Assembly: GCF_003605475.1 (NCBI RefSeq)
Contig: NZ_RAHX01000001.1
Span: 1,984,001-2,048,000, forward strand
Length of the DNA: 64,000 nucleotides
Direction of reading: 5' to 3'
From: Aurantiacibacter aquimixticola
Lineage (GTDB): Bacteria > Pseudomonadota > Alphaproteobacteria > Sphingomonadales > Sphingomonadaceae
Under the pieces are notes generated by a model that did no database searches, was not told the origin of the DNA, and was given only the letters and a program-made list of their open reading frames with translations. Each line of letters starts with the position of its first letter. Position 1 is the first letter of the stretch. The translations under genes and the position numbers were made by a program. Shown piece by piece: positions 61,395 to 64,000 of this stretch.

Positions 61395-61705
61395 CGCAGC
61401 AGCTCCGCGACGTTGAGCCTGACCGCGATGCCGACCAGCAGCAAAGCGCCCAGCACGCGGACGAGCCAGTCCACTGCCGCCTTCCAGGCGCTGGCCTTGG
61501 CCGTGCGCCAGGCGCCGAGCAGGTCGCGCAATTCGTCGAGATCGTCCTGCGCGTTGTCGTCGCCCAGGCCGAGCCGGTCGAGCACGCGCCGCGCGCCGAC
61601 TTCGCTCGCTTCCTCGACAATGGCGCGCAAGGTGACGAGGTCAGCCCCGCCGTCCTGCGTTTGCGCCTGCGCGATCAACGCGGCGAGCATGTCTTCGCGG
61701 TTCAT
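61391..61705 (-). CDS. GTA small protein, DUF6127 type (gp3.5 position)
   Basis: A 104-residue protein with the DUF6127-like pattern DLVTLRAIVEEASEVGARR and a C-terminal transmembrane segment (about 84-100). It overlaps both the portal stop (4 bases) and the protease start. In RcGTA a small gene lies in the same place; its function is unknown to me. Confidence 0.7.
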   Translation of the reverse strand: MNREDMLAALIAQAQTQDGGADLVTLRAIVEEASEVGARRVLDRLGLGDDNAQDDLDELRDLLGAWRTAKASAWKAAVDWLVRVLGALLLVGIAVRLNVAELLR

Positions 61706-62862
61706 TTCGTATCTCCGGCAGGGGCGAGGCCGAGCAGGCTGCGCTTTTCTTCCGTGCTCAGGAATTCCGCCGCGCTCACCTGCTTCCACAGCCGCTCGCG
61801 GTCCTCGGAAAGCGCGGTCACCTGGTCGAGATCGACGGTGAGCGACAGGCCCGGGAACCACGGCGACAGACCCTCCGCGAGACCGCCCAGGATCTTGCCC
61901 GAAAGCGGCAGCAGGGTGAGGCGCCACAGCGCGCGATTGGCCTCGCGATAATTGGCGTAGGTGTTGTCGCCCGGCAGGCCGAGCAGCATGGGCGGCACGC
62001 CGAACGCGAGCGCGATATCGCGCGCGGCGGCGGACTTCAGCTCCGCGAAGTCCATATCGGCGGGGGAGAGGGAGAGGCTCTGCCATTTCAGCCCGCCTTC
62101 CAGCAGCATGGGCCGCCCGGCATTGCCGCCGCCCTGATAGGCTGATTGCAATTCCGCCTTCAGCCGCTCGAACTGGTCGGTCGTAAGGCCGGCCGTGTCT
62201 GCGCCGCCGTCATAGACCAGCGCGCCCGATGGCCGCGCCGCATTCTCCAGCAAAGCGCGATTCCAGTGGGCGGCAGCATTGTGGATCGCGACGGCCTGCT
62301 CGGCAGCGGAGAGGCACCCCGCGCCGTAGTGATCGTCTGCCGGGTGGAAGGCTTTCAGATGCACGACCGAGGGCCAGCCATGCTCATCCTCCACCGGCAA
62401 TTCCAGCGTCCGCTCGCCCAGGCGATAGCGATAGGCTGCGGGCCAGCCATCCTCTCCCGGCACGATCGCAACGCGCTCGGGCCGCAGCGCGAACAGTTCG
62501 ACAGGCTGGCCCGCGCCGTCCTTCGCGATCTGCACGAAGGCATTGCCGTGCAGCAGCAGATGCGCGGCGAGCGTTTCGAGCAGTGATTGCCCCGCGCTCG
62601 AGGCATTTACGAGCGCCATCGCGCCATCGTCGGAGGCGCTGAGCGGCGCGCCGCCCACGCCTTCGGACACGATCCGCACCGCGCGCTGCGCCACCGGATT
62701 GTCGAGAAAGGCATGGCGCACGGCGGAGCGATATTCGAACGGCGCCCGCGCCCCGCCCTGCTCGTAGGTCCACCCCCAGGGCGACTGAAACGAGCGCGCC
62801 AAAGGCACGCGAGAACCCGCCCCGCCCTTGAAGGCGGAGCGTAGCGATGAGAGAAATTGCAT
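61702..62862 (-). CDS. GTA portal protein (gp3-like)
   Basis: A 386-residue phage portal of the HK97/lambda type, with FEYRSAVRHAFLDNPVAQRAVRIV near the start, PLSGKILGGLAEGLSPWFPGL and ILPAFGVPPMLLG-like core (here AFGVPPMLLGLPGDNTYANY). AGGAG precedes the ATG. It is separated from the terminase by the GIY-YIG element. Confidence 0.9.
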   Translation of the reverse strand: MQFLSSLRSAFKGGAGSRVPLARSFQSPWGWTYEQGGARAPFEYRSAVRHAFLDNPVAQRAVRIVSEGVGGAPLSASDDGAMALVNASSAGQSLLETLAAHLLLHGNAFVQIAKDGAGQPVELFALRPERVAIVPGEDGWPAAYRYRLGERTLELPVEDEHGWPSVVHLKAFHPADDHYGAGCLSAAEQAVAIHNAAAHWNRALLENAARPSGALVYDGGADTAGLTTDQFERLKAELQSAYQGGGNAGRPMLLEGGLKWQSLSLSPADMDFAELKSAAARDIALAFGVPPMLLGLPGDNTYANYREANRALWRLTLLPLSGKILGGLAEGLSPWFPGLSLTVDLDQVTALSEDRERLWKQVSAAEFLSTEEKRSLLGLAPAGDTK

Positions 62863-62880
62863 GGAAATGCTCCTGAATTG

Positions 62881-62910
62881 TTCGTCATTCCCGCGAAGGC
62901 GGGAATCCAG
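62881..62910. repeat. Palindromic REP-like repeat, left copy
   Basis: Arms ATTCCCGC and GCGGGAAT form an imperfect hairpin within TTCGTCATTCCCGCGAAGG and its continuation. The right copy at 63236-63265 is its reverse complement with a single loop change. It lies 18 bases upstream of the portal start. Confidence 0.85.
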
Positions 62911-62923
62911 TAGCGGATGAGCG

Positions 62924-63235
62924 ATGCAGCGCGATTTCGCTCCAACCGTTTATCTTCTGGCCTCCGCGCGCAACGGCACACTCTATGTCGGCGTCACATC
63001 CAATTTGATGCAGCGCATTGCTCAGCACCGCGCAGGAATCGGCGGAGGATTCGCCGCCAGACATCGCGTCACGCGGCTTGTGTGGTTCGAACAGCACGGG
63101 ACTATGGAGCACGCGATTATTCGCGAGAAACGCATCAAGAAATGGAACCGCGCGTGGAAACTGAGACTGATCGAGGCTGACAATCCGGACTGGCGCGATC
63201 TTGCGGAGGAGTTCGGTTTCAAACCGCTCGGCTGA
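62924..63235 (+). CDS. GIY-YIG nuclease-domain protein
   Basis: A 103-residue single-domain nuclease. It has the VYLLAS start (GIY-like), the YVGVTSNLMQRIAQHR core (YIG, catalytic Arg) and the conserved Glu in REKRIKKWNR near residue 68. These small proteins resemble UvrC/URI-type domains. It is on the strand opposite to the GTA operon. The stop is directly followed by the right palindromic repeat. Its start is 13 bases after the left repeat. Confidence 0.9.
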   Translation: MQRDFAPTVYLLASARNGTLYVGVTSNLMQRIAQHRAGIGGGFAARHRVTRLVWFEQHGTMEHAIIREKRIKKWNRAWKLRLIEADNPDWRDLAEEFGFKPLG

Positions 63236-63265
63236 CTGGATTCCCGCCTGCGCGGGAATGACGAA
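63236..63265. repeat. Palindromic REP-like repeat, right copy
   Basis: Contains CTGGATTCCCGCCTGCG followed by the partner arm GCGGGAATGACGAA. It matches the reverse complement of the left copy except for one loop base. It lies 21 bases after the terminase stop. Confidence 0.85.
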
Positions 63266-63286
63266 ATTATATTTATCGGCGTTCTA

Positions 63287-64000
63287 TCAAAATCCCCGCA
63301 CCCTCGGCACCGCGCCGCGCTTGCCCAGCATCAGTTCGGTCAGCGCCCATACCAGCGCGTCGGCCCTGTCCGGCGAGCGGCCGGGGCCTTCGTAACTGCC
63401 GCCGGTCATCAGGCCGCAGAGCTGGTCTTCGAGCCTGGCGAACTGGCCGGCATGGCGCACGCGGTCGTTTTCGTAGAGCGCGGCTACGGGCTCGGCGCGG
63501 GCCACTTTGCCGGTGCTCGCATGGACGAGCTTGATCGGCATCTGGCAATCGGCCGCGCGCAGCACGCTTTCGACCATCGCGCCGCCCTGGTTCGCCTCGG
63601 CAACCACGCGGTCCGCTTTCCAGTGCAGCGCCGATGCGGCGACCGCGCGAGCCCAGCGTTCCGGGCTGGGCCGCGCGACGCTGTCATCGGCCATCACCTT
63701 GGCCAGCCCGTCTGCGGTCAGCCCGACGACGATGATGCCGCATTCGTCACCGCGCGCCGAAGCGGGCGGATCGACGCCGATCACCACGCGAACGAAGCCT
63801 TCCACATTGAACCCTTCACGGCACCGCTCGATCAGCGAGCGGGTCCATAGCGCGCCCTCGACATCACGCAGCAGCTCGCCATCGAGTTCCTGCCGACCGA
63901 GCGCGCTGTCGCCATATTGGCGGCGCATGACATCGATGAAGCCGACCGCGAGATTGTCCTCATTCTCGTCCGAGCGCCCCCGCGTAAGCGCAATGTCCGG
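63287..64000 (-). CDS. GTA terminase large subunit (gp2-like), C-terminal part
   Basis: 237 residues are visible; the N-terminal ATPase domain lies outside the window. The visible start TRGRSDENEDNLAVGFIDVM and RRQYGDSALGRQELDGELL match the end of the ATPase region. The nuclease domain shows VIGVDPPAS (metal Asp), VAEANQGG and SPDRADALVWAL (metal Asp). It packages DNA into heads. The reading frame is intact to base 64000. Confidence 0.92.
   Translation of the reverse strand, partial: PDIALTRGRSDENEDNLAVGFIDVMRRQYGDSALGRQELDGELLRDVEGALWTRSLIERCREGFNVEGFVRVVIGVDPPASARGDECGIIVVGLTADGLAKVMADDSVARPSPERWARAVAASALHWKADRVVAEANQGGAMVESVLRAADCQMPIKLVHASTGKVARAEPVAALYENDRVRHAGQFARLEDQLCGLMTGGSYEGPGRSPDRADALVWALTELMLGKRGAVPRVRGF

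Follow-up and report, generated by a model that had tools for sequence, protein, structure and literature searches.

The window, by which we mean the whole 64-kb stretch of DNA analysed, contains a 381 bp unit (62883..63263, from CGTC head to CGTC head, unstranded) in which one small GIY-YIG nuclease gene lies between two inverted CGTC-tagged REPs of its own type, and it is probable that this unit is a minimal autonomous mobile element of REP/RAYT-like character with the nuclease as its dedicated enzyme. Comparison of related loci strongly favours a GIY-YIG enzyme acting in the role of RAYT. The support read directly comprises the pairing of gene and repeat, a separate palindrome for each nuclease subfamily, a common orientation of the repeats, dispersed copies with fixed ends, a site that is filled in some genomes and empty in others, conservation of the active site and RAYT genes that are mostly undetected.

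The left REP (62883..62910, + strand) consists of a CGTC head, an 8-bp stem, a 4-nt loop and a CCAG tail, and the right REP (63236..63263, - strand) is its inverted counterpart with the head facing outward. Measured as inverted arms (62881-62911 and 63235-63265), the two are 31 nt each, 97% complementary and separated by 323 nt, each forming a hairpin of the order CGTC, ATTCCCGC, 4 nt, GCGGGAAT, CCAG, with the CGTC head outward and the CCAG tail inward. The 64-kb window has two copies of the pattern CGTCATTCCCGC N2-8 GCGGGAAT, the mean in 100 shuffles being 0.00. Between the arms, the nuclease gene (62924..63235, + strand, 103 aa) starts 12 nt past the left arm and its stop codon directly abuts the right arm. 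The surrounding genes are on the - strand and form an RcGTA-like cluster that includes Rcc01698-like, non-contractile tail sheath, tail tube, protease and capsid genes as well as the unit's two host neighbours, the GTA portal protein (61702..62862, -, PF04860) and the C-terminal part of the GTA large terminase (63287..64000, -, PF17289), which continues past the window end. What remains of the junction is 20 nt on the portal side (62863..62882, -), including the portal's Shine-Dalgarno-like AGGAG, and 23 nt on the terminase side (63264..63286, -). The initial annotation had described near-identical inverted palindromes bracketing a single GIY-YIG gene tightly at both ends, oriented against the GTA genes and placed between portal and terminase, and this description is borne out.

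The 103-aa protein matches PF01541 with an E value of 2e-16 and has the motifs and the Tyr, Arg and Glu residues by which the GIY-YIG superfamily is recognised. Y10, Y21, G23, R31 and E68 are what we take to be the catalytic positions of the superfamily, after I-TevI and UvrC, and among 212 members of the family Y10 is kept in 207/208, Y21 in 208/210, R31 in 207/209 and E68 in 211/211; a C-terminal K-x-W-x-R-x-W-K stretch is also conserved among the relatives. The AlphaFold2 model has a mean pLDDT of 89.6, and the closest solved structures, in sequence or in fold, are UPF0213 proteins, the UvrC N-domain and SLX1. The UPF0213-type structure 1zg2 (phmmer E 0.004) was the sole fold match at E <= 0.001, at 26% identity, SLX1 was matched with Foldseek probabilities of 0.84-0.99 (E 0.07-0.27) and I-TevI poorly (E 1.7). 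The fold is shared with UPF0213/YhbQ-type GIY-YIG proteins and SLX1, with a weak match in sequence, and the likeness to SLX1, a structure-specific nuclease, is one of fold only. No NCBIfam model was found at E 0.001 for the five members searched, and no PADLOC family at E 0.001 for the window nuclease; a function in anti-phage defence was rejected, there being no PADLOC match.

The window's genome has two members of the family, which are 53% identical and have different palindromes. The second (L002, G000:C1:1128165-1128431) has GCTCCTGC-type arms, and the start of the gene just after it reads by eye like dihydrolipoamide dehydrogenase; because it directly precedes this gene, L002 probably lies inside an operon. 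More distant relatives include phage proteins of merely 33-34% identity in 10 Rhizobium phage records, and proteins of approximately 40% identity on a Planktothrix plasmid (L129, Cyanobacteriota), adjoining DISARM drmA and a type IIL restriction enzyme, and on a Spirosoma plasmid (L128, Bacteroidota); the repeats near these two are of the GTCATTCTGAG and GTCATCCCGAG types. Four records of the plasmids collection that were searched (H1, H2, H16 and H20) are chromosome-sized (2.2-3.7 Mb) and probably misfiled. Stop codons interrupt the match in L022, L135, L215, L225, L166 and L185, and an inverted repeat still flanks most of those scored; such broken members with a retained flanking repeat would be as expected of a decaying mobile gene.

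The unpaired CGTC end, the 8-bp stem starting AT, the 4-nt loop and the CCA tail of the arms agree with the definition of the CGTC-1 REP in the cited passages of Di Nocera et al. (2013; PMC3733652). The same passages place dRS3 of Neisseria in the CGTC REP class and report no association of CGTC repeats with transposase genes, a dedicated transposase being apparently absent; a text search of PMC3733652 found no occurrence of 'GIY-YIG'. CGTC-1 dimers are there mostly of one orientation (HH), and across 40 genomes of the window's genus all 29 of 29 type-a pairs within 150 bp run + then -, heads outward, as do the unit's arms, an arrangement that on our own reading of the wording of PMC3733652 corresponds to HH. 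The repeat is rare in the window's genome: the short palindrome TTCCCGC N2-9 GCGGGAAT occurs at 4 places in 2.55 Mb, two of them the unit's arms (1 for the reversed control), and the full motif with at most two mismatches at 5 places (control 0). These 4-5 sites, and a palindrome that tracks the nuclease, run counter to the situation that the initial annotation had named as fatal to a mobile unit, namely a ubiquitous repeat unrelated to the nuclease. An Rfam search of the unit region returned nothing but matches of both arms (62861-62958 and 63196-63279) to FtrB at 22-23 bits, below the gathering threshold of 66; FtrB, a Francisella sRNA, may derive from such a repeat.

To avoid ranking bias, the association of gene and repeat was assessed in 199 Pseudomonadota genomes that the tool had drawn; 51 of them carry the nuclease, 3 of these in the window's genus. 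Outside that genus an inverted repeat with a score of at least 13.5 spans the gene in 56 of 73 loci (at least 16 in 50 of 73), whereas this is so for 1 of 213 shifted flanks and for none of 69 neighbouring ORFs. The 73 loci are what is left of 87 rows after setting aside 7 that belong to the window's genus and 7 matches that are partial or lie at a contig edge. Among the 17 loci with no inverted pair, 8 have no tagged hairpin nearby and 9 have at least one (one seemingly spurious), the comparison value in shifted windows being 8 of 142. Within the 40 genomes of the window's genus the inverted repeat is present in 45 of 52 loci (53 member rows, all above 100 bits, minus the broken copy L135) versus 1 of 156 shifted flanks, and in 0 of 11 longer GIY-YIG proteins (open frames of 234-388 aa) from the same genomes, a control group picked by open-frame length after the repeat scores were seen.

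Outside the 52-locus count stand 25 weaker rows from the genus: these 11 controls, a second piece of L156 and 13 others. Eight of the 13 (L156, L194, L197, L198, L199, L201, L202 and L204) have an inverted repeat of another kind scoring at least 13.5, and it is absent in five (L195, L196, L200, L203 and L205). The seven other than L156 are more distant small GIY-YIG genes (45-60 bits) lying between inverted CTGAGCTTGTCGAAGG-type palindromes, presumably another common repeat, and the nuclease-palindrome system may thus reach past the CGTC REPs. Among the best 80 of 262 relatives, which come from alpha-, beta- and gammaproteobacteria as well as from records whose titles name Planctomycetota, Chloroflexi, Hydrogenedentota and other groups, a tagged hairpin lies within 160 bp on both sides of the gene in 53, on one side in 22 and on neither in 5, and the density of tagged hairpins by the gene is 6.8 per kb versus 0.30 elsewhere in the loci, a 23-fold difference. 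Relatives in N. gonorrhoeae, S. meliloti, A. lipoferum and N. aromaticivorans likewise have CGTC-type repeats at the gene. Judged from these loci, the pairing is general and not special to the window's site.

The palindromes themselves differ between loci, the genus alone having ATTCCCGC, ATCCCCGC, ATCCCAGC, CTGAACTTGTTTCAG, CATTGCGAG..GCAATCC, ACCCCGGACTTGATCCGGGGT, GCCCCGTGCTTGACACGGGGC and more, and further types come from plasmids and chromosomes of Azospirillum, Shinella, Rhizobium, Sinorhizobium, Novosphingobium and Sphingobium. The similarity of the repeats rises with the identity of the proteins (Mantel r 0.62, 0 of 2000 permutations), and for non-syntenic pairs from different genomes r is 0.54, whereas the highest value among 5000 within-genome reshuffles is 0.43. 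Two repeats agree (similarity of at least 0.6) in 76% of 17 pairs above 75% protein identity and 67% of 55 pairs at 65-75% identity, compared to 4-11% of 907 pairs below 65%. On a tree of the nucleases three repeat groups require 3 changes, where shuffling requires 16.4 on average (0 of 200), with few branches well supported for such short proteins; the groups were made by single linkage, which merged several palindromes, and the pairwise non-syntenic test is independent of that grouping. By these measures the palindrome tracks the nuclease subfamily, each lineage having its own.

REPs also occur away from any nuclease gene. Type-a REPs were found at 123 sites in 20 of the 40 same-genus genomes, and next to the 29 close pairs there are 7 neighbour pairs 150-2500 bp apart, of which 5 have their heads outward; all 5 of these enclose a GIY-YIG gene, with a spacing of 340-354 bp, and the other two are one unit with an extra dimer (G027) and one pair of sites in the same direction. 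Since the close pairs are uniformly heads outward and the wider heads-outward pairs enclose the gene, the gene-less dimers look like units minus the gene. Type-d REPs beyond the unit were present, among the matches listed, in 9 of 10 carriers of the type-d nuclease versus 8 of 30 non-carriers (one-sided p 7e-4), where the unit-flanking sites were set by hand among those matches, the G037 positions and one in G033 lie outside them, and the values for G002 and G025 are low by one or two with the carrier and non-carrier categories unchanged. Again among the matches listed, type-d REPs without a matching nuclease number 12 sites in G027, 9 in G005, 8 in G015 and 6 in G000; the 8 non-carrier genomes are a real exception, which we read as holding relics. 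For type a at zero mismatch, REPs beyond the unit occur in 4 of 6 carriers of the ATTCCCGC type versus 11 of 34 non-carriers (p 0.13, not significant), the sole such sites in carriers G001 and G035 being the unit's own arms. The number of type-a REPs was consequently dropped as a sign of action in trans, whilst the type-d comparison is significant. In rhizobia, a 2.7-kb stretch containing one Sinorhizobium unit (L126) matches at least 720 places, spread over 113 records, in 8 of which the count is too low. To judge by this number, the REP dimers of the Sinorhizobium unit seem to be the intergenic mosaic repeats, which are abundant in rhizobia.

The state of the insertion site could be compared among relatives, as had been proposed with the initial annotation. 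A portal match was present in 27 of the 40 same-genus genomes, and 25 portal loci (L090-L114) were examined, G035, whose portal is split, and G005, whose match is weak, not being among them; the terminase lies upstream in 24. Counting the window among these 24, the junction is bare in six (37-42 nt), to be compared with the 43 nt (20+23) left outside the unit in the window. In L093 a repeat dimer without the gene lies almost exactly where the window has its unit, L092 has other sequence plus a repeat dimer, L095/L173 has a different GIY-YIG gene with a different palindrome, and 14 of 24 loci, read by eye, have assorted other sequence, so that the junction looks like an insertion hot spot. Related GTA clusters, then, do not all carry the gene, a finding that leaves the mobile-unit idea standing.

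Dispersal is most evident in the Mesorhizobium-like genus of G195, where one unit with its flanks, used as a query, matched 51 of 61 genomes somewhere. Here at least 36 of at least 67 alignments covering the gene, in 22 genomes, end a few bases from CTTCGTC and GACGAAG on both sides, and one genome has up to at least 5 copies with fixed ends, these copy numbers being lower bounds that include five alignments starting at query position 793. Copies that share a genome, of which G195 and G094 have three each, show 87-94% identity, and their homology stops in the flanks; duplicated relatives thus end at their REP heads, and several copies per genome with fixed ends indicate that the unit has dispersed. 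An Azospirillum unit sits between sufB and sufC. One Mesorhizobium-like site measures just 34 bp in one genome, is occupied by different inserts elsewhere, and is too busy for an exact insertion point. At two Sinorhizobium loci, compared by eye, one strain has lone REPs where another has REP-gene-REP, one each way; because lone REPs sit at the site in the comparison strains, a clean empty site was rejected there and the loci are taken as switching between REP and REP-gene-REP. Direct repeats, as left by target-site duplication, were not in excess at the outer edges of 72 units or of 109 units with ends set at the GTC heads. The outer flanks of the 109 units are slightly more inverted-complementary than shuffled pairs, which we do not use as evidence because the arms were picked by inverted similarity.

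PF01797 (RAYT/Y1) was undetected in the window's genome and in 37 of 40 same-genus genomes, and detected in 3 of 40, so RAYT is an unlikely spreader of these REPs in the genus and was rejected as mobiliser for the 37 genomes. The unit nevertheless resembles the REP/RAYT systems (REPtron, REPIN) in that an enzyme gene is flanked by a REP dispersed in the genome, gene-less dimers are scattered and enzyme lineages have REPs of their own. RAYT, however, is an HUH tyrosine (Y1) transposase with GTAG REPs, and here a GIY-YIG gene with CGTC-tagged REPs stands in its place; since the defining Y1 enzyme was looked for and not found, the unit works like REP/RAYT and is not a member. With free-standing homing endonucleases of the I-TevI type it has in common a GIY-YIG catalytic domain and filled and empty sites, but the unit has no intron or intein and has its own inverted palindromic ends and dispersed gene-less copies. 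Like an insertion sequence it has terminal inverted repeats around one enzyme gene, yet target-site duplication was not detected (72 and 109 units) and its sole gene encodes a GIY-YIG protein rather than a DDE, HUH, Ser or Tyr transposase. With the CGTC-tagged REPs, dRS3 included, as described in the cited passages of PMC3733652, it shares head, stem, loop, CCA tail and dimers of one orientation; they were described there with no transposase association, whereas here a GIY-YIG gene lies inside the pair.

The most likely course of events is that the nuclease would recognise its own REP hairpin, as a cruciform or as single-stranded DNA at the replication fork, and cut at or near the CGTC head. 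Host repair would then copy or rejoin the released or broken intermediate, by which the REP-gene-REP unit and, in trans, gene-less dimers could settle at further intergenic sites, the target being left unduplicated. The reaction of GIY-YIG enzymes is hydrolysis of DNA, and they are not known to perform strand transfer, so insertion would need host factors. The initial annotation had suggested that a GIY-YIG nuclease, an enzyme of a different class, might play a RAYT-like part: the pairing and how specific it is, the borders of the unit and its dispersal are read from the sequence, and that the nuclease spread the repeats, like hairpin recognition, cutting and the insertion step, is what we infer from them.

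The main alternative is homing among existing REPs, in which the REPs spread by other means and the nuclease, as a gene drive, cuts REP alleles lacking it so that repair copies the gene in, with no new REP sites formed. GIY-YIG domains occur in homing endonucleases, the Sinorhizobium loci alternate by eye between lone REPs and REP-gene-REP, and the gene-less dimer of L093 lies at nearly the same portal-terminase point, all as homing would have it. We nevertheless regard it as unlikely, given that homing alone does not explain why nuclease clades have palindromes of their own, leaves insertion into a junction that is REP-free in six relatives unaccounted for, and does not name the enzyme that spreads the REPs. 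The gene might instead be a passenger, cargo or a stabilising addiction gene on REP-ended DNA moved by a host or trans-acting transposase. The linkage of gene and arms alone does not decide the matter because such a passenger would show it too, as would anything moving as one, and there are genomes with REPs and no matching nuclease; yet no other cargo was seen for type a, its 5 of 5 heads-outward pairs 150-2500 bp apart holding a GIY-YIG gene, Y1/RAYT is undetected in 37 of 40 genomes, and the cited passages of Di Nocera et al. (PMC3733652) name no transposase class with CGTC REPs. As no other cargo is seen for type a, we consider this reading less likely than homing and improbable.

That the nuclease is a housekeeping enzyme, resolving or trimming REP cruciforms or processing REP RNA and kept near REPs for regulation without being mobile, would suit its closest solved relatives (UPF0213, UvrC and the structure-specific SLX1), but the patchy presence (51 of 199 genomes), changing location, sharp-ended multiple copies and empty sites make it very improbable. 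We give next to no credence to REPs being so dense that any small intergenic gene becomes flanked by them: they are intergenic and abundant in some hosts, as the Sinorhizobium stretch with its at least 720 matching places attests, but the controls (none of the 69 neighbouring ORFs and one among the 213 shifted flanks) refute this in the sets tested, the window's genome has only 4-5 sites of which two are the arms, and none of the 11 longer GIY-YIG proteins is so flanked.

On balance we favour extending the mobile-element reading to small GIY-YIG nucleases as dedicated mobilisers of the super-family of CGTC REPs, in which dRS3 of Neisseria and several orphan alphaproteobacterial palindromes would be counted. 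They would make up a class of prokaryotic mobile elements with a hydrolytic nuclease and host repair replacing a transposase and many lineages co-evolving with their own palindromes. Among the matches listed for open-access full text (subscription papers and preprints being outside its scope) there was no link between GIY-YIG and REPs, and text searches of a 2025 REP survey (PMC12306157) and a 2021 RAYT study (PMC8266576) found no 'GIY'. One clade of Moraxella catarrhalis has both RAYT and GIY-YIG among its specific genes, and the clade-specific gene table cited from PMC9465073 has them as separate, unlinked rows. Novelty rests on the enzyme class; on a stricter view, the unit could be called a variation on REP-plus-enzyme systems.

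CGTC REPs occur in several phyla and, in the cited passages of PMC3733652, were published without an enzyme; a dedicated nuclease, if true, would explain their spread and make it testable with one purified protein and one oligonucleotide. It would also provide many natural enzyme-hairpin pairs for the question of how a domain of approximately 90 residues reads a palindrome, and would mean that a GIY-YIG nuclease drives mobility without an intron, intein or reverse transcriptase. GIY-YIG enzymes may then be the partner that a large class of bacterial repeats has so far lacked.
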